From positions 1 through 24,160 of the IMG/VR virus record IMGVR_UViG_3300042402_001205: a stretch of 24,160 bases of DNA; one strand, given 5' to 3'. The position numbers and the translations under genes are program-made. The stretch is from a virus. Below the pieces are notes generated by a model, which was given only the letters and a program-made list of their open reading frames with translations, made no database searches and had not been told where the DNA came from. Of this stretch, positions 3,059 to 16,948 are shown in pieces (positions within the stretch are counted from its first letter, which is position 1; each line of letters begins with the position of its first letter).

Positions 3059-3223
3059 ATGTCTAAAGTCGTATATCGTGGTGTCGAATATGATACCGCA
3101 GAACGTCCAAATCAAACGTTTAAAATTGAACCCCACGTAGAAATTTATCGTGGTACTATGTTTTACGTTGATGAAAATGGAAACAAACTCTCTATGTCTA
3201 AAACTAAGGGAGGTGCAAAATGA
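3059..3223 (+). CDS. DUF4278-type small protein (54 aa)
   Basis: The product opens with K-V-V-Y-R-G-V-E-Y, the hallmark of the DUF4278 family (YRG-x-x-Y), which is widespread in cyanobacteria and their phages. A second Y-R-G lies at about residues 30-32, as expected for the two-motif architecture. The family has no known function. A strong Shine-Dalgarno (AAGGAGA) lies about 7 nt upstream of the ATG, unlike the two genes before it. The stop overlaps the next start (ATGA). The family supports a cyanobacterial host. Confidence 0.7.
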   Translation: MSKVVYRGVEYDTAERPNQTFKIEPHVEIYRGTMFYVDENGNKLSMSKTKGGAK

Positions 3224-3321
3224 ACACTTACTTCGTTCGCTATCTCAAACTCAAAGCAAAAAAGGAAAAACTCCTTCATAACGCACAACTGAATATGGCG
3301 AAGCAACCACAAGTTGCTTGA
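3220..3321 (+). CDS. Tiny basic protein (33 aa)
   Basis: ATG at 3220 overlaps the stop of the DUF4278 gene by 4 nt, and GGGAGG about 8 nt upstream can serve as ribosome site. The product is rich in Lys/Leu and starts MNTYFVRYLKLKAKKEK. It ends 6 nt before a terminator stem, so it is the last gene of its operon. Comparable tiny basic ORFs sit here in related phages, but at this length coding status is not certain. Confidence 0.45.
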   Translation: MNTYFVRYLKLKAKKEKLLHNAQLNMAKQPQVA

Positions 3322-3557: not shown

Positions 3558-3717
3558 TAGGGCAAGAAAAATGATGAAATTGCTCCGTAGATTGATTAAA
3601 CAAGAGCATTTATATTCTGCTGAGCAATTGATTGAAATGAAATCACAATTAAGGATTCTGGAAGAAGAACTTTCAGAACTCGAAGCAAAAACATCAAAAG
3701 GATTTGGAAAGAAATGA
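3550..3717 (+). CDS. Small coiled-coil protein upstream of thyX (55 aa)
   Basis: Starts inside the end of the previous gene and ends in the ATGA that begins thyX. The N-terminus is basic (RARKMMKLLRRLIK). Residues about 25-46 show a heptad pattern (LIEMKSQLRILEEELSELE) that predicts a short coiled coil. It is probably an oligomer or a partner-binding peptide. The position suggests coupling with thyX translation. No family recognised. Confidence 0.55.
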   Translation: MTNRARKMMKLLRRLIKQEHLYSAEQLIEMKSQLRILEEELSELEAKTSKGFGKK

Positions 3718-4352
3718 CAGTAAAACTCATTAGCGTGACCCCAGATGCAGAAAAAACAATGGCATATGTTGCTAGAGTTAGCAACCCTGCGAATCAAGAC
3801 AACGAAAACTATGCCAAGTTGCTTGCTTATTGCATTAAGCATAATCATTGGTCTGTTTTTGAGCAGTCTTTTATGACTCTTGAGATCGAAACAAATCGTG
3901 GTATCGCAGCTCAAATTTTGAGGCACCGTTCTTTCACATATCAAGAATTTTCGCAGCGTTATGCAGATTCTTCTTTGTTGAGCGATTATATTCCTGTACC
4001 TGAACTTCGTCGTCAAGATACCAAGAATCGTCAGAACTCTATTGACGACATTTCTGAGTATGAGAAACTGACTCTACAGAGTAAGATTCAAGACCATTTT
4101 GCACACTCTATGCAACTCTATAAGGAACTTCTTGCTCATGGAGTAGCAAAGGAGTGTGCAAGGTTTGTACTGCCCTTAGCGACGCCTACACGCATTTATA
4201 TGTCGGGATCATGCAGGTCATGGATTCATTATATCAATCTTCGTTCTGCAAATGGAACTCAGAAAGAACACATGGATATTGCTCTTGAGTGTAAGAAAAT
4301 ATTTACCGAACAATTTCCATCAGTCTCAGAAGCGTTAGAGTGGAATAAATAA
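3714..4352 (+). CDS. thyX: FAD-dependent thymidylate synthase ThyX
   Basis: A 212-aa protein with the ThyX signature RHR-x7-S at residues 70-80 (R70-H71-R72 ... S80). It also has the second conserved region near the C-terminus (S-C-R-S-W-I-H-Y-I-N-L-R). ThyX makes dTMP from dUMP with CH2-tetrahydrofolate and FAD/NADPH in the cytoplasm, supplying thymidylate for phage DNA. Marine cyanobacteria and their phages commonly use ThyX instead of ThyA. The length agrees with the family. The start overlaps the previous stop (ATGA). Followed by an ATAAATA late-type motif across its stop codon. Confidence 0.96.
   Translation: MTVKLISVTPDAEKTMAYVARVSNPANQDNENYAKLLAYCIKHNHWSVFEQSFMTLEIETNRGIAAQILRHRSFTYQEFSQRYADSSLLSDYIPVPELRRQDTKNRQNSIDDISEYEKLTLQSKIQDHFAHSMQLYKELLAHGVAKECARFVLPLATPTRIYMSGSCRSWIHYINLRSANGTQKEHMDIALECKKIFTEQFPSVSEALEWNK
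4345..4351 (+). promoter_or_regulatory. Putative late promoter ATAAATA
   Basis: ATAAATA overlapping the thyX stop, with 23 nt between it and the ATG at 4375. It matches the core of the T4 late promoter and would let the following gene be expressed late while thyX is expressed earlier. Confidence 0.5.
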
Positions 4353-11668: not shown

Positions 11669-12538
11669 GTGCCAGCACCTAGACCAAGAAAAATATCAGA
11701 ATTTAAAAGAGTATTAACAAATCTAGCTCAAACCTCACATTATGAAGTCAAGTTTGGAGCACCACCAAAAGATGGTGCGTTATCATCTTATTTGGCTAAC
11801 AGAGGTGTTGATTCTAGATTTATAAGCGGTGATGTTGGATTGTTATGTTACTCTGCAGAACTTCCATATGGAAGTTTGGCAACTGCAAATATTGCAGGAA
11901 ACTACATGGGCATTCAAGAAAAGATTGCCCATAGTAGAATTTATGGGCAAGTTAATTTAGGGTTCTATATTGATAGTGATTATAAAGTATTGAAATTTCT
12001 AGAGCACTGGGCAGAATTTATTGCAAGCGGATCTCATAATCCAGTTGGAACAAATGCTGATGCTGTCAGTCAAGGAAGAAAGAATTATTTTATCAGAATG
12101 CAATACCCCGAATACTATAAGATGGAATCGACAAAAATCGTTAAGTTTGATAGAGACTATCGTAAAAATATTGAATACACATTTTTTGGAATGTTCCCCT
12201 CTAATGTTGGTAATATTAATGTTTCATATGATAGCTCTAGAACTTTGACTGCATCTGCAACTTTTGAATTCACTCGCTATGTTTGTGGGCCAATTTCTGC
12301 CATTGACCAAAAAAGAGGAGTTGATAATAATAAAACTGGAGAATCATCTTTACTGTATGCATCTGGTAAAGTCGCACCACTGAGTGCGGATGAAGCGAAC
12401 GCTATTAGATTATCACAATCTTATCCAATTTATGGAGGAGAGGGTGCGGCAACTACTGGGAGTAGTATTGATTGGAATCAAAAACCTGACTTTGTTGCTG
12501 GAGAAATTGGACAATATCCACCAGGATTTGGTTCATAA
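11669..12538 (+). CDS. gp54: Tail-tube-fold baseplate protein, gp54-like, GTG start
   Basis: A 289-aa protein read from GTG 11669; no in-frame ATG covers the conserved N-terminus. The sequence has the tube-protein pattern: P-Y-G-S-L-A-T-A-N-I-A-G-N-Y-M-G-I-Q-E-K, then I-Y-G-Q-V-N-L-G-F-Y-I-D-S-D-Y-K-V-L-K-F-L-E-H-W, and later Y-T-F-F-G-M-F-P-S-N-V. It ends with a Gly/Pro-rich tail. This fold is shared by gp19 tube subunits and gp54, which starts the tube on the baseplate. The length (gp54 is 320 aa; gp19 is 163 aa) and the location favour gp54. I cannot separate these without alignment. It starts the rightward tail operon. Confidence 0.6.
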   Translation: MPAPRPRKISEFKRVLTNLAQTSHYEVKFGAPPKDGALSSYLANRGVDSRFISGDVGLLCYSAELPYGSLATANIAGNYMGIQEKIAHSRIYGQVNLGFYIDSDYKVLKFLEHWAEFIASGSHNPVGTNADAVSQGRKNYFIRMQYPEYYKMESTKIVKFDRDYRKNIEYTFFGMFPSNVGNINVSYDSSRTLTASATFEFTRYVCGPISAIDQKRGVDNNKTGESSLLYASGKVAPLSADEANAIRLSQSYPIYGGEGAATTGSSIDWNQKPDFVAGEIGQYPPGFGS

Positions 12539-12567: not shown

Positions 12568-13284
12568 ATGCCTTTACCAACAATTGCAACTCCGACTTAT
12601 GAGTTGACATTACCATCTTCTAAAAAAACAATTAAATATAGACCATTTCTTGTTAAAGAAGAAAAAATTCTTATCATCGCAATGGAAAGTCAAGATGATA
12701 AGCAAATCACAAATGCAATTAAAACAGTTATCTCAAATTGCATTTTGACAAAAGGTGTAAAAGTAGAAGACCTGGCTACTTTTGATATTGAGTATCTGTT
12801 CCTTAACATCAGAGGAAAGTCAGTAGGTGAGACAGTAGATGTTCTAATCACCTGCCCTGATGATGAAGTTACTCAAGTTCCAGTGTCAATTAACTTGGAC
12901 GAAATCCAAGTTCAAACCAATCCAAATCATACCAGAGATATTAAGTTAGATGATAATCTAACAATGAGGATGAGATATCCTTCATTGAGTCAGTTTATTA
13001 AAAACAACTTTAATATTACTGATGTAACGGTTGATGATACTTTTGAGTTGATTAGTGGATGTATTGAGCAAGTCTATTCTGAAGAAGAATCTTGGTCTGC
13101 TTCTGATTGTACTAAGAAAGAATTATTTGAATTTGTTGATCAATTGAGTTCGAAACAATTCAAAGAGATTGAGACTTTCTTTGAAACAATGCCCAAACTT
13201 TCTCATACAATCAAAATCAAAAATCCAGAAACAAAAGTTGAAAGTGAAGTTGTTTTGGAGGGTCTAACAAGTTTTTTCGCGTAG
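12568..13284 (+). CDS. gp26: Baseplate hub assembly protein gp26 (T4_baseplate family)
   Basis: A 238-aa protein starting M-P-L-P-T-I-A-T-P-T-Y-E-L-T-L-P-S with K-Y-R-P-F-L-V-K-E-E-K, the conserved start of the T4 gp26 family. T4 gp26 (208 aa) is an assembly factor for the central hub. In the general tailed-phage scheme it stands where the tail-assembly chaperone lies, directly upstream of the tape-measure region. The last codons read S-F-F-A-stop through AGT TTT TTC GCG TAG, containing a T TTT TTC slippery heptamer in the proper frame (13272-13278). A -1 shift there would fuse residues 1-237 to the gp51-like ORF, giving a product of about 298 aa. Confidence 0.85.
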   Translation: MPLPTIATPTYELTLPSSKKTIKYRPFLVKEEKILIIAMESQDDKQITNAIKTVISNCILTKGVKVEDLATFDIEYLFLNIRGKSVGETVDVLITCPDDEVTQVPVSINLDEIQVQTNPNHTRDIKLDDNLTMRMRYPSLSQFIKNNFNITDVTVDDTFELISGCIEQVYSEEESWSASDCTKKELFEFVDQLSSKQFKEIETFFETMPKLSHTIKIKNPETKVESEVVLEGLTSFFA

Positions 13285-13310
13285 GGATGGCTCATGATTC
13301 CCTTGAGTCA
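13272..13310 (+). promoter_or_regulatory. Candidate programmed -1 ribosomal frameshift site
   Basis: The heptamer T TTT TTC lies at 13272-13278, aligned to the gp26 frame as X XXY YYZ. After a 9-nt spacer there is a stem-loop: TGGCTCA (13288-13294) pairs with TGAGTCA (13304-13310), seven pairs with one G-U, loop of 9 nt. The zero-frame stop (TAG 13282-13284) comes two codons after the heptamer. The -1 frame from 13278 reads R-V-G-M-A-H-D and continues without stop to 13463. Confidence 0.65.
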
Positions 13311-13463
13311 TACTACAAAACAAATTTTGCCCTCATACAGCATCATAAATATTCATTGACAGAGTTAGAAAATATGATACCTTGGGAGAGAGAAATTTAT
13401 ATCTCTCTTCTTCAGCAGTTTATAGAAGAAGAAAATCTTAAAAACGGCATAACGAATGGCTGA
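13287..13463 (+). CDS. gp51: gp51-like hub assembly protein or frameshift extension of gp26 (58 aa)
   Basis: ORF from ATG 13287, two bases after the gp26 stop. The product starts M-A-H-D-S-L-E-S-Y-Y-K-T-N-F-A-L, with the helical motif L-T-E-L-E-N-M-I-P-W-E-R-E-I-Y-I-S-L-L-Q-Q-F-I-E-E-E. From memory, a protein of this kind follows gp26 in cyanophages and is called gp51-like; T4 gp51 is much longer (249 aa). The P-W-E-x-E-x-Y helix recalls the short second part of tail-assembly chaperones. There is no Shine-Dalgarno at normal spacing, and the ORF is in the -1 frame relative to gp26 with no stop between. It is probably made by frameshift, by coupled re-initiation, or both. It overlaps the next gene by 8 nt. 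Confidence 0.75.
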   Translation: MAHDSLESYYKTNFALIQHHKYSLTELENMIPWEREIYISLLQQFIEEENLKNGITNG

Positions 13464-15066
13464 TGCAATAACCATAGCACAAACAGGTGTAGATCCTAGA
13501 ACAGGATCTTACCTGTCTGCTGAAGCCAGAAAAGCACTATTCCGTAGAGCAACTGTTTCCAGTTCTGTGTTTCGTGGTCGTGGTGGTGCTTTAGTTAGGC
13601 AAGATGGAAATGATTTAGCAAGCACTCAAAGTTTAGCAATTGTAAAGGCAAATCAATCTTCTCTTGGAACAATTTCAAAGCAGATTGAATTTGTTCGTGT
13701 AGAAGTTTTAAATTTAACCAATGGTGTTAGAGATATTGCTAGACTTCTCAGAGGAGAAACTATTGCTGAGCAAAAAAGAATTCAAACAGAACAAGATAAT
13801 GAGCAAAAGATAGTTGATAGAGATATAAAAAGAGGTCGTGAAAACGAATTAGAAAAGAAAATACAAAATGCTCTTATCAGTCCAGTAAAAAAAGTTATTG
13901 AGCAGACTGAGGGTATATTTGATAGGATTAAGAGCGCAATATTCACTCTTCTTGGTGGGTGGTTCACACTTCAAGGAATAGAATTATTAAGGGCATACAA
14001 GGATAAAAATTTTAAAGTTTTTGATGAGATTAAGAATAGTATCCTCAAGAACTTACTTTATGCTGGTGCTGGTTTATTAGCGATTAATGTTGGATTTGCT
14101 GTTTTCCTAAGATTACTCAATGGTGTAGTTTTTAAAGTTGGTGGTTTAATTGCTAAACTGATTTTACTGCCATTCAGAGGTCTGGGTGCTTTAGGTAGAG
14201 GTGTTGCTGGATTATTCAGTAGAGGAGCACCTGCCGCTGCCAATGCCGCTGCCAGAGGTGCAAGACCTACTGTAACAGGTAGCACGAACTTAATGACTAA
14301 GTTCTTTAATTTTATGAAAGGTGGCGGTGCTGCAGCAGCTGGAGGTGGGAGAGTTGCTGGTGGTTTTACCCCTGGTCTTGGAACTGCTCTTGGTGCAGTC
14401 TCGACAGGTTATGATTTGAGTCAAGGAGATTTGCCAGGAGCAGCTCTTAGTGCGTTATCTATGTTTCCAGTAATCGGAGGATTTGCAGCCGCTGGAAGAG
14501 TTGGACTTGAATTATCTAGAATGGCAGGTGGGGGACAAGAACAAAAACAAACTCCAACTTCTTCAACTCCACAGCAACAATTAAAGCCAAATAAACCAAA
14601 TATTCCACCACCAGGTTCAACTTCACAAACACCAGAAGCTCCAGCAGCAACACCTATGCTTCCAATGACTCCAGGGGTAAATGGAGATCTTAATATGAAT
14701 GTTGGAACCGCTGCACCAGAAGTAACTCCAACAGAAGAAGAAAAAGGATACTTAGACTTATATAAAAATATACCAACAATGAGACCTTTACTTCCAGGAG
14801 AAACTGCTGAAGAAAGAGCTCTTTCTGTTACTCCAGTGTCTCCAGAAGCAAAAATATCACAAAAGCAAACAGAAAATGCACCATTAGGACCTTTAACTAA
14901 ACCAGCTCCTCAGGTTATTTTGACACAACCAGAGATGAAGCAAAAACCACCAGCACCATCATTAAGAAAAGGAAATTCTTCTAACAATGTTCCCCATATA
15001 TCTTCGAGTAATCCTAATAATTTTTACACTATGTACTCTCAATTAAGTTATAATGTGGTGATGTAA
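13456..15066 (+). CDS. Tape-measure-like structural protein (536 aa)
   Basis: The N-terminal 90 residues are mixed; about 100-140 is a highly charged coiled coil (E-Q-K-R-I-Q-T-E-Q-D-N-E-Q-K). Hydrophobic membrane-like segments follow at about 160-178, 199-240 and 330-355, separated by a Gly/Ala-rich stretch. The last 170 residues are Pro/Gln/Thr-rich. Long coiled coils and membrane-like helices directly after the chaperone pair are typical of tape-measure proteins, which set tail length and may enter the host membrane on ejection. T4's gp29 tape measure is 590 aa, similar to this one and to the next gene (626 aa). I find no sequence motif of gp29, so the role is inferred from place and shape. 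It could be a hub-associated structural protein instead. Confidence 0.55.
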   Translation: MADAITIAQTGVDPRTGSYLSAEARKALFRRATVSSSVFRGRGGALVRQDGNDLASTQSLAIVKANQSSLGTISKQIEFVRVEVLNLTNGVRDIARLLRGETIAEQKRIQTEQDNEQKIVDRDIKRGRENELEKKIQNALISPVKKVIEQTEGIFDRIKSAIFTLLGGWFTLQGIELLRAYKDKNFKVFDEIKNSILKNLLYAGAGLLAINVGFAVFLRLLNGVVFKVGGLIAKLILLPFRGLGALGRGVAGLFSRGAPAAANAAARGARPTVTGSTNLMTKFFNFMKGGGAAAAGGGRVAGGFTPGLGTALGAVSTGYDLSQGDLPGAALSALSMFPVIGGFAAAGRVGLELSRMAGGGQEQKQTPTSSTPQQQLKPNKPNIPPPGSTSQTPEAPAATPMLPMTPGVNGDLNMNVGTAAPEVTPTEEEKGYLDLYKNIPTMRPLLPGETAEERALSVTPVSPEAKISQKQTENAPLGPLTKPAPQVILTQPEMKQKPPAPSLRKGNSSNNVPHISSSNPNNFYTMYSQLSYNVVM

Positions 15067-15067
15067 G

Positions 15068-16948
15068 ATGGCAGTTTTAAGTTTATCTGCTGGAACTAGT
15101 TCAATCAATAAGATTTCTTCCACGTTTATAAACATGAGAAGAAGTCTTTCTAATACAAGAACAGTAATTAGTGATACTAAAAGAGTTATTTTAAATAGAA
15201 CTAAGATAAAAAGTGAAGCAGTATTCAGAAGTAAAGGTCTCTTTCAAAAAAGACAGGATAATTTAAGAAAGAAAGAAGCAGAAGATCAACTTGAAGCATC
15301 AAGTCTAGGTTCTATCCTTTCTCCAGGATTTGCTACTGAGAAATCTATCCTCAACAGTGGTAAAGGATTTTTGGGAAGGATTTTATCTGCGATTGCATAT
15401 TTGGGAGTGGGATGGTTACTAAGAAACTTACCAACTTGGATTGGAATGGCAAAAGAATTTGTTGCCAGAATTTATAAGGGAGTGGCAATTATTAAACAGT
15501 TTTTTATGGGTGCAATTGGATTTGTTGGTAATATGTTCAATCTTCTTGGTGCCGTTGCCCAAAACATTATGTCATTTGATTTCTTTGACACATCGAATAG
15601 AGTAAAAGATACATTTGGACAACTCAATCAAAATCTATCTGATATGTCATCATCAATCGATGACGCATTGAGATTGATGACAACATCTCTCAATGAAGGG
15701 ATTGCAAGTGGTCAAAATGCACCACCATTGGGCACTCAGGGAGAATCTCAATTCTCAGAACGCGAATCTCAATTTCCAGGAGCTGGAGAAACATTATCCA
15801 CTGAACAATTAGTTGCTGTTGCAAAACAAGCTGGATTTAGTCAACAAAATGCAGTTACTGCAGCAGCAGTTGCAAAAGCAGAGTCTGGTGGAAGATCTGG
15901 TGTAGTAAATGACAATCCAAGGACTCGTGACTTATCTTATGGTTTATGGCAAATTAATATGATTGGGTCCCTTGGCCCAGAAAGATTGAAAAAATTTGGA
16001 ATAACATCCTATGAGCAATTAAAAGACCCTCTAACTAATGCAAGGGCAGCATTCATTCTGTCTGGTGGTTCTAATTTTAATCCTTGGAGTGTTTATAAGT
16101 CTGGAAAATATAGGTCATTTTTACCAGAAGCACAAAAAGCAGCAAATGTATCTCCAGCAGCATATGCATCTGGGCAGCAATCTGCAAATCTACAACAAGC
16201 ACCTGCAGTATCAACTGGAACAATGAGTTTAATACCACAAGTTGGACCAGGGGGATTTATTCAGGGTGGATCTGGTAGAGGGGAGGCTAGTTATGCGACT
16301 CACTTCCACTTAGATTATAAAGGAGCAAATCCAACGGCAGAGCAACTTGCAAGTATTCGTGAAGTTGCTTTCCATGCAACAAAAGCAATGCTTGCAAGAG
16401 GTTCAACTGTATTTTATGGAAATATAAAACAATATGCATCTGGTAGTGATGATAATATCAGAAGATTAATTGCTGCAGAGCAGAGAGCCCATGGTGGAAG
16501 AAGTAGTGCCGCTGTTGATATGCAAGAAATCAATTCTAAAGTAAAACAAACATTCCCATCTCAAGTAGGATCGGCAACTAAGTTTCCTTTTGCAGTTGGT
16601 GCAGTGTATTATCGTGGTGGATATGGTAGAGAAGCAGAAATTATTGGAACGGGGGGAGTTACTGTTTCTCATGGTGCAGCAGGTTCAACAGCAAGTTCTG
16701 TATCTGGTGTTCCATCAATGGATGTTGCATCTGGAATTACACCAAGTATGTCTCCAGATGTTGTAAGCGTGGTTGATACACGACCACAAATGGATTTGAG
16801 TGGATTAGCACAATTATTGAATTCTGCCGCTGCATCGTTTGGATCTCGTTCTCTTGAACAAGAATCACAAACCACACAAAGCCCACCATCAAGTGTGTTA
16901 AATAATTTTATCAAACAAAAGTTCTTAACTGATTTAGCGTATCTATAA
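15068..16948 (+). CDS. Tape-measure-like protein with lysozyme-like domain (626 aa)
   Basis: Residues 1-80 are basic and helical. Membrane-like hydrophobic segments lie at about 101-128 and 138-175. A lysozyme or lytic-transglycosylase-like domain spans about 248-360: catalytic-type Glu 272 in A-K-A-E-S-G-G, then Y-G-L-W-Q-I-N near 290 and N-P-W-S-V-Y-K-S-G-K-Y. From about 400 a second domain has T-H-F-H-L-D (H412, H414) and H-G-G-R-S-S-A-A-V-D (H475, D484), which could be a degenerate metallopeptidase; this is uncertain. The protein would cut peptidoglycan at ejection, the job done in T4 by the gp5 lysozyme domain. Its membrane-segment layout resembles that of the previous gene. Last base shared with the next start. 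Confidence 0.65.
   Translation: MAVLSLSAGTSSINKISSTFINMRRSLSNTRTVISDTKRVILNRTKIKSEAVFRSKGLFQKRQDNLRKKEAEDQLEASSLGSILSPGFATEKSILNSGKGFLGRILSAIAYLGVGWLLRNLPTWIGMAKEFVARIYKGVAIIKQFFMGAIGFVGNMFNLLGAVAQNIMSFDFFDTSNRVKDTFGQLNQNLSDMSSSIDDALRLMTTSLNEGIASGQNAPPLGTQGESQFSERESQFPGAGETLSTEQLVAVAKQAGFSQQNAVTAAAVAKAESGGRSGVVNDNPRTRDLSYGLWQINMIGSLGPERLKKFGITSYEQLKDPLTNARAAFILSGGSNFNPWSVYKSGKYRSFLPEAQKAANVSPAAYASGQQSANLQQAPAVSTGTMSLIPQVGPGGFIQGGSGRGEASYATHFHLDYKGANPTAEQLASIREVAFHATKAMLARGSTVFYGNIKQYASGSDDNIRRLIAAEQRAHGGRSSAAVDMQEINSKVKQTFPSQVGSATKFPFAVGAVYYRGGYGREAEIIGTGGVTVSHGAAGSTASSVSGVPSMDVASGITPSMSPDVVSVVDTRPQMDLSGLAQLLNSAAASFGSRSLEQESQTTQSPPSSVLNNFIKQKFLTDLAYL

Follow-up and report, generated by a model that had tools for sequence, protein, structure and literature searches.

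Gene 26 and gene 51 of many T4-like phages are probably joined by a programmed -1 ribosomal frameshift

Introduction

In phage lambda the chaperone genes G and GT are placed between the tail tube and tape-measure genes, and a short and a long form are made by a -1 shift at the slippery site GGGAAAG, close to the end of the short reading frame. The long product, GT, has a T domain, and neither G nor GT is found in the virion, according to excerpts of a 2016 review in which the tail frameshift is held to be conserved in long-tailed phages 'except T4' (PMC5009743). A passage of another text states that some T4-like phages, rather than frameshifting, carry one short gene and one long fusion gene (PMC10885494). 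In excerpts dealing with T4 itself, gp26 and gp51 are given as hub assembly chaperones, gp51 being essential, of unknown function and absent from the particle, while genetic work is also cited as placing gp26 in the hub (PMC3004832).

The locus described here lies in a virus record of 24,160 bases, the whole of which is called the window. As in lambda, a short and a long form appear to arise from a -1 shift shortly before the short frame ends, but the slippery site differs, being T TTT TTN accompanied by a Shine-Dalgarno-like (SD-like) element, and gp26 is larger than its lambda counterpart and belongs to family PF12322. Phage T2 (T4-type) differs from the window in having two genes, gp26 for the short and gp51 for the long form, and no heptamer, where the window has one gene with a putative slippery site. 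In the TAC genes of the Adele-type Vandenendeviridae/Andersonviridae the -1 frame continues open beyond the TAC-N stop at an invariant poly-T motif, as in the window; the motif is GTTTTT, the phage group is a different one, and the excerpted description mentions no SD-like element (PMC12846349). Outside the phages, E. coli dnaX offers a likeness in its homopolymeric heptamer, simple downstream stem-loop and 5' SD-like stimulator, as these are summarized in part of the 2016 review (PMC5009743). It is an unrelated gene, its heptamer is A AAA AAG as against T TTT TTC, and its shift gives the shorter product in E. coli.

Chaperone genes in T4-like phages were reportedly assigned by Vladimirov, Gautam and Davidson in 2022. 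A later text cites that 2022 paper for slippery sequences of the poly-T type which T4-like phages have in their TAC-N genes (PMC12846349). As such, the core idea of the frameshift has probably been in print in some form, which limits the novelty of what follows, and the remark in the original prediction that no description of the shift was known for T4-like phages has probably been overtaken. Our literature search, which covered titles, abstracts and excerpts of texts other than the 2022 paper, found no statement of a gp26/gp51 frameshift for cyanophages. Nor did it find, for gp26/gp51, any mention of absent start codons, of a hairpin with covariation, of the SD-like element or of how widely the pattern extends, any of which the 2022 paper may contain.

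Methods

Six scans of viral contigs, with the gp26 of the window, HTVC008M, S-CREM2, OC, phiM9 and PX29 as queries, yielded loci L001-L080 and L094-L199, the window-query scan contributing the best 80 of 595. The total was 200 loci including the window and 13 isolate regions, with some repeats (L197-L199 are L125, L124 and L127; L095, L135 and L195 come from the genomes of L083, L088 and L087), and since some contigs are thus repeated the cluster counts are the trustworthy ones. The 196 loci with a gp26 stop formed 115 clusters at 90% identity, the 4 of 200 without a stop being left out; for downstream counts L003 and L012, which have fewer than 60 nt after the site, were also left out, and the 110 clusters with the heptamer became 108. 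Our tests count each cluster once and take no account of a tree, which overstates the probabilities but not the counts. A gp26 identical to the window's is present in a contig of 100.6 kb (L001), and among the matches listed the best named isolate is Synechococcus phage S-SRM01, with a gp26 77% identical. In the profile comparisons, alignment A4 held the gp26 rows together with the fused protein of L066 and alignment A6 the gp51 domain, and the two were modelled apart; a joint alignment of gp26 and gp51 fragments with fused L066 was dropped when a smaller test showed that it had misplaced the gp51 rows.

Results

The features of the locus in the window are as follows.

11669-12538, + strand: upstream neighbour, tail-tube-like protein (PF23849, E 1.5e-13; phrog_45, E 2.9e-37)
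12568-13284, + strand: gene 26, the predicted short form (TAC-N), 238 aa (PF12322, phrog_150, structural model)
13257-13262, + strand: SD-like GGAGGG, proposed upstream stimulator, ending 9 nt before the heptamer (GAG bias at its Glu codon)
13272-13278, + strand: candidate slippery heptamer T TTT TTC, in phase (110 of 115 clusters; control, 1 of 96 other Phe-Phe pairs)
13272-13463, + strand: -1 frame gp51 domain, predicted to be reached by the shift (phrog_634, E 6.8e-29, and the end of phrog_150)
13282-13284, + strand: zero-frame stop TAG, one codon past the heptamer (sequence)
13287-13311, + strand: hairpin, proposed downstream stimulator, 13287-13294 paired with 13304-13311, the stem containing the gp51 ATG
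13456-15066, + strand: downstream neighbour, tape-measure-like by position, overlapping the -1 ORF by 8 nt

Read directly, gene 26 ends GGT CTA ACA AGT TTT TTC GCG TAG, in which T TTT TTC is phased as N NNT TTT TTC, as a -1 shift needs. The ATG at 13287, placed 2 nt past the TAG at 13282, and the TGA at 13461-13463 are both in the -1 frame, with no stop from the heptamer to the TGA; the same reading confirms what had been predicted, namely a correctly phased heptamer at the end of gp26 and a -1 frame open from it to TGA 13463. From the coordinates, the shift product (gp26-51, the predicted TAC-NC) would read ...T-S-F-F-R-V-G-M-A-H... and have 298 aa in total, its gp51 extension comprising 61 codons. 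Gene 26 matches PF12322 (T4_baseplate) with E 5.9e-77 over profile positions 1-219 of 219. A single profile, phrog_150, spans gp26 (5-232 matched) and then gp51 (231-278 matched), which was the first hint that both belong together. All 35 of 35 aligned members of the gp51 frame match phrog_634; Pfam at E 0.01 gave no credible gp51-domain model, one of the 35 members having matched an unrelated family.

The gene order of tube-like protein, gp26, gp51 and tape-measure-like protein is the usual place of a tail chaperone, the tape-measure side being the weaker and coming through the annotation of relatives: nearby downstream genes carry a tape-measure annotation in HTVC008M, and a similarity to tape measure is found in phiM12. 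The predicted position of the pair, upstream of tape-measure-like genes, is thereby upheld by position and by relatives' annotation, but not by Pfam, where the gene at 13456-15066 had zero matches. The second gene downstream, at 15068-16948, has a lysozyme-like domain (PF18896, SLT_3, E 1e-19), and its product is apparently a tail-associated cell-wall enzyme, as judged from this domain. Elsewhere in the window, the ORF at 3714-4352 presumably resembles a ThyX-type thymidylate synthase, from its motif RHRSFTYQEFSQRY.

Among the relatives, an in-phase T TTT TTN stands at the end of gene 26 in 110 of 115 clusters (TTC in 74, TTT in 32, TTG in 2 and TTA in 2), unbroken by the silent changes which, in the original prediction, would have spoken against a shift. 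By single loci the figure is 189 of 196, or 190 counting L096, where the heptamer is visible and which was scored as a miss solely through an early stop in its reading. The five clusters that lack the heptamer are those of T2, Salmonella SJ2, Vibrio D508, Vibrio 207E48.1 and IME-SM1, which have no in-phase copy anywhere in the gene; in-phase heptamers occur at 14 of 25,564 other codon positions in the genes surveyed. The codon ahead of the slip is AGT, GAT, TCT, GCT, AAT or CGT, ending in T without exception even as the amino acid varies between Ser, Asp, Ala, Asn and Arg. The distance from heptamer to stop is 0 or 1 codon in 106 of 108 clusters, and in two loci (L117:2190-2220 and L179:2115-2145) the zero frame extends 8 codons past the heptamer, not 0 or 1, which implies that a nearby stop is not required.

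The frame of gp51 is equally constant. After the heptamer it is -1 in 108 of 108 clusters and open for 59-71 codons (that of L137 is ended by the contig end), and as to the possibility, raised with the prediction, that the gp51-like ORF might lie in variable frames relative to gp26, the sole departing record is IME-SM1 (+1). In 20 of the 108 clusters the first 11 codons of the gp51 frame contain no ATG, GTG or TTG, and in 7 more they contain TTG only. The ATG-less frames keep their sequence, for example FFLVGLSHIDLEAY in L102, and, being open and kept with no start codon, could hardly be reached except by way of the shift. Annotators have omitted gp51 in ACG-2014j, S-PRM1 and P19 and have started it internally in HTVC008M, S-RIM8 and OLIVR5, and a joined gp26/gp51 feature is found in none of 28 isolate regions (one of which is without any annotation). 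A subgroup of the window's own group (L004, L005, L009 and L018, at about 3208-3260) has kept the heptamer but lost both the hairpin's 5' arm and the ATG of gp51.

These start codons bear on a rival reading, termination-reinitiation, according to which ribosomes ending at TAG 13282 would restart at ATG 13287 and gp51 would be a separate, translationally coupled protein of 58 aa. The closeness of the window's ATG to the stop is what such coupling would call for, in 81 of 108 clusters, the window included, an in-frame ATG occurs no more than six codons from the slip, sometimes in a TAATG overlap, and the hairpin holds the ATG, as in coupled genes. Against this, reinitiation provides for no start in the 20 clusters that have none of the three codons, and for little in the 7 with TTG; it leaves the heptamer, the T-ending codon before it and the phase unexplained; and T2 gp51 has both domains in one chain. 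Moreover, an SD core 4-15 nt upstream of the gp51 ATG was found in 0 of the 81 ATG-bearing clusters, the window again included, as had been claimed when its ORF was said to have no normally spaced ribosome site. We regard reinitiation as unlikely overall, though it may operate in the 81 ATG-bearing clusters, and the ribosomal -1 shift as the better account of the gp51 frame.

An element that the original prediction did not contain is the SD-like GGAGGG, which sits at -15 to -10 and pairs well with the 16S rRNA end. Windows starting at -15 reach -6 kcal/mol or below with 16S rRNA in 93% of 58 core clusters, as against 1.5% of windows elsewhere in the gene, and in 60% of the 52 other clusters, as against 1.2%. 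Its Glu codon is GAG in 49 of 58 core clusters versus 389 of 1382 Glu codons elsewhere (Fisher p 4e-18); in the non-core clusters Glu is present there in 30 of 52 and is encoded by GAG in 24 of the 30, versus 304 of 1142 elsewhere (p 3e-9). From these codon choices the element is conserved at the codon level, beyond its amino acids. In the window it stands 24 nt from the gp51 ATG, which exceeds known SD spacing for a start codon, and it is therefore too far away to start gp51; the SD spacing in dnaX is about 10 nt. Its position fits that of the SD-like stimulators of bacterial -1 shifts, as these are described in excerpts of two texts (PMC10885494, PMC5009743).

The SD-like element is more widely shared than the hairpin. 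The predicted seven-pair stem-loop does exist after the heptamer, with 8 pairs (seven plus one), but it is largely confined to the window's own group. The 40 nt at 13279-13318 fold at -14.0 kcal/mol, where shuffled versions average -7.4 (z -2.8) and 1 of 200 does equally well. In 56 core clusters 96.4% of cells pair, against 18-48% for slid stems, with a covariation score above 500 of 500 shuffles, although slid and shuffled controls of this type favour any stem that was read from these sequences or is common to kin. Most of the covariation rests on one pair, which is U-A in 29 clusters, G-C in 23, A-U in 1, G-U in 1 and unpaired or other in 2. One side of this pair is mostly the wobble base of an Ala codon and its partner the middle base of a Glu, Ala or Val codon, such that no protein reason for linking them is evident. 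A quickly built gp26 tree, 19 of whose 53 inner branches are open, gives 12 changes of state for the pair, and the well-supported branches give only 3 independent comparisons, all of which agree. The hairpin is partly broken in some core clusters and its stem is lost in most of the 52 non-core clusters (L102, L106 and L108 have one). A single general hairpin for all clades was accordingly rejected, and on these sequences the hairpin appears to be largely lineage-specific.

A second rival is transcriptional slippage, in which the T run would gain a base in some mRNAs, which would then be read in the -1 frame. The runs are of 6, 7 or 8 Ts, and one record, that of IME-SM1, does show a run-length difference. 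However, the run is exactly 6 in 76 of 108 clusters and 9 in none, whereas slippage in bacteria is associated with runs of 9 As or Ts in the part of the 2016 review that treats it (PMC5009743). Slippage would also not need the run to begin at the third codon base, as it does in 108 of 108 clusters, and it accounts for neither the SD-like element nor the hairpin; we consider it very unlikely. The base preceding the heptamer is G in 37 clusters, A in 36, C in 35 and T in 0 of the 108.

The weakest rival, that a conserved Ser/Asp/Ala-Phe-Phe end in AT-rich genomes happens to adjoin an independent overlapping gene, can draw on the conservation of Phe-Phe at the protein level and on the share of TTT among Phe codons elsewhere (785 of 1153, 68%), but is scarcely credible when the other Phe-Phe pairs of the same genes, predominantly TTC TTT, are T TTT TTC in 1 of 96 cases and T TTT TTT in none, and when the T before the heptamer alone has, given the amino acids, a log10 probability of about -26 with clusters taken as independent, a value that shared descent overstates. 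Synonymous change at the slip, which had been predicted to be depressed, gives a mixed picture. The codons for Phe236 and Phe237 are identical in all 1540 pairs of the 56 core clusters, where 0.59 is expected, and the synonymous-rate test is positive, but codons 231-237 form the second-best 7-codon window, behind the gene start, and since they are not the unique window of low change the Phe-Phe control is the stronger argument. High codon identity among relatives is also seen at codons 1-14 of gene 26 and at Ser226 (AGT, 0.94 versus 0.35 expected).

With named isolates, the heptamer is present in 21 of 28 examined. It was found in 8 of 13 isolates of the first set and in 11 of 11 of the second (P-HM1, S-ShM2, S-RIM8, ACG-2014j, Melnitz, phiM12, OLIVR5, XG4, Bakedbeans, P19 and S-PRM1); Mendera and Ps15 have it, and the Ackermannviridae phage GR28A and Aeromonas phage 31, which is of the two-gene kind, do not. 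The seven without it are T2, Aeromonas phage 31, D508, 207E48.1, SJ2, GR28A and IME-SM1. By their taxonomy lines the positive isolates include Kyanoviridae, three Straboviridae genera outside the T-evens, Pootjesviridae, Menderavirus and others, and their proteins are as low as about 25% identical to the window's. In Ackermannviridae-type loci (L092:3290-3420, which is SJ2, L086, L090 and L215, which is GR28A) a gp51-like -1 ORF follows gp26 with no T TTT TTN, and in SJ2 this frame has no start codon ahead of its conserved part; Vibrio phage Bakedbeans has a C-terminal domain similar to the Ackermannviridae type, yet the heptamer is present.

Two records depart from the pattern in other ways. 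In Stenotrophomonas phage IME-SM1 (L085:3195-3290) the T run lacks one base relative to Mendera and Ps15 of the same genus, and this places the gp51-like frame at +1, lengthens the annotated gp26 and drops gp51 from the annotation. The short run is probably a sequencing slip in a homopolymer, and the comparison with its genus slightly favours the frameshift reading. In L066:2501-3388, the one miss by single loci apart from the five clusters above and L096, gp26 and gp51 form a single fused frame (..LTSFWLGMAHVDL..), the heptamer having been replaced; this single metagenome contig may have lost the frameshift naturally or may have been misassembled.

The two-gene arrangement of T2, with gp26 and gp51 on opposite strands, can be related to the window through the make-up of T2 gp51. 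Its residues 1-201 match PF12322, the gp26 family (E 4e-55), phrog_634 is found at its end, and phrog_150 spans residues 3-248 of 249. In profile comparisons T2 gp51 matched A4 with E 3.6e-12 over 234 columns and the gp51 alignment with E 2.7e-5 (probability 74%, 45 columns), and T2 gp26 matched A4 with E 4e-19; the gp51 of Aeromonas phage 31 aligns with the fused L066 protein in one piece over both parts (22% identity, E 6e-6). T2 gp51 thus comprises a gp26-like domain and a gp51 domain, from which it follows that in T4-type phages the short form would be gp26 and the long form gp51, each with a gene of its own. Short and long forms have a common N-terminal part in T2 gp26/gp51 and, in a single frame, in L066; in the window they would have it only by means of the proposed shift.

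The model of gp26 (pLDDT 87) has an N-terminal part resembling the HK97 chaperone. Among 635 chains its best matches, over residues 1-96, were 2ob9 (Z 7.8), 3fgx (7.7) and 3klu (7.1), followed at rank 4 by 5ir0, a protein of unknown function (Z 5.2), with the remainder at 4.2 or below. The first three are phage tail-assembly chaperones according to excerpted text (PMC9603447), and that all of the top three are so is the weighty point, not the Z alone, as a Z of 7-8 is reached by many models with no true relative and may reflect a common arrangement. Foldseek alone was weak, matching the gp26 model to 2ob9 at E 1.6, and against BFVD it recovered the gp26 family, with nothing further on function. 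A PDB sequence search with gp26 had no match at E 1. Taken together, the model argues moderately for an HK97 gp13-type chaperone fold in gp26. The gp51-domain model is middling (pLDDT 75, pTM 0.47), and a PDB sequence match for gp51 at E 0.59 was taken as chance.

Discussion

Given the conservation of the heptamer, its phase and the frame that follows it, we consider it very likely that 13272-13278 is the site of a functional programmed -1 ribosomal frameshift. From these sequences and the gp26 model it is also likely, if a little less so, that gp26 and gp26-51 serve as chaperones of tail assembly. What we infer from this material is the slipping itself, its frequency, and the roles of the two stimulators and of both proteins. 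Under the proposed scheme, most ribosomes would stop at the gene 26 stop and release the short protein, gp26. A minority would be slowed when GGAGGG pairs with 16S rRNA and, in the window's group, also by the hairpin 8-9 nt downstream; ribosomes so slowed would slip back by one base on T TTT TTC into the -1 frame and add the gp51 domain of 61 codons. In phages of the window's type gene 51 would thus be an extension of gp26 rather than a separate gene, and the two chaperone forms would, by analogy to lambda G and GT, keep hold of the tape-measure protein and bring in the subunits of the tube. In E. coli constructs U_UUU_UUA and U_UUU_UUU were far less shift-prone than A_AAA_AAG, with UUC going unnamed in the excerpt concerned (PMC5009743), and the efficiency at T TTT TTC may be low for this reason.

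The make-up of T2 gp51 and the structural matches of gp26 together suggest that gp26/gp26-51 correspond to lambda G/GT and that T4 gp26/gp51 are the same pair carried as two genes. The original prediction had proposed this equivalence with G and GT, and a tie between the T4 hub factors and the universal chaperone system; both proposals gain support from T2 gp51 and, moderately, from structure. On a wider scale, we lean towards the view that gene 51 is a mere frameshift extension of gp26 in cyanophages, pelagiphages and KVP40-like, giant Aeromonas, Stenotrophomonas and rhizobial T4-like phages, the shift being brought about by a dnaX-like signal (the SD-like element, a T6-T8 heptamer and, in one group, a covarying hairpin), and that frameshifting may be ancestral to the superfamily, with T4 gp26/gp51 a later duplication and in-frame fusion that took its place.

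If so, the ordinary frameshift of tail chaperones appears to be in use across much of the T4-like superfamily, and the long-puzzling hub proteins of T4, gp26 and gp51, would be its short and long chaperones in two-gene form. Gene 51 would be misannotated or missed in widely sampled marine phages, and gp51 would gain a role that can be tested. The pair would also present a clear case in which one gene-expression device, the frameshift, was exchanged for another, duplication.
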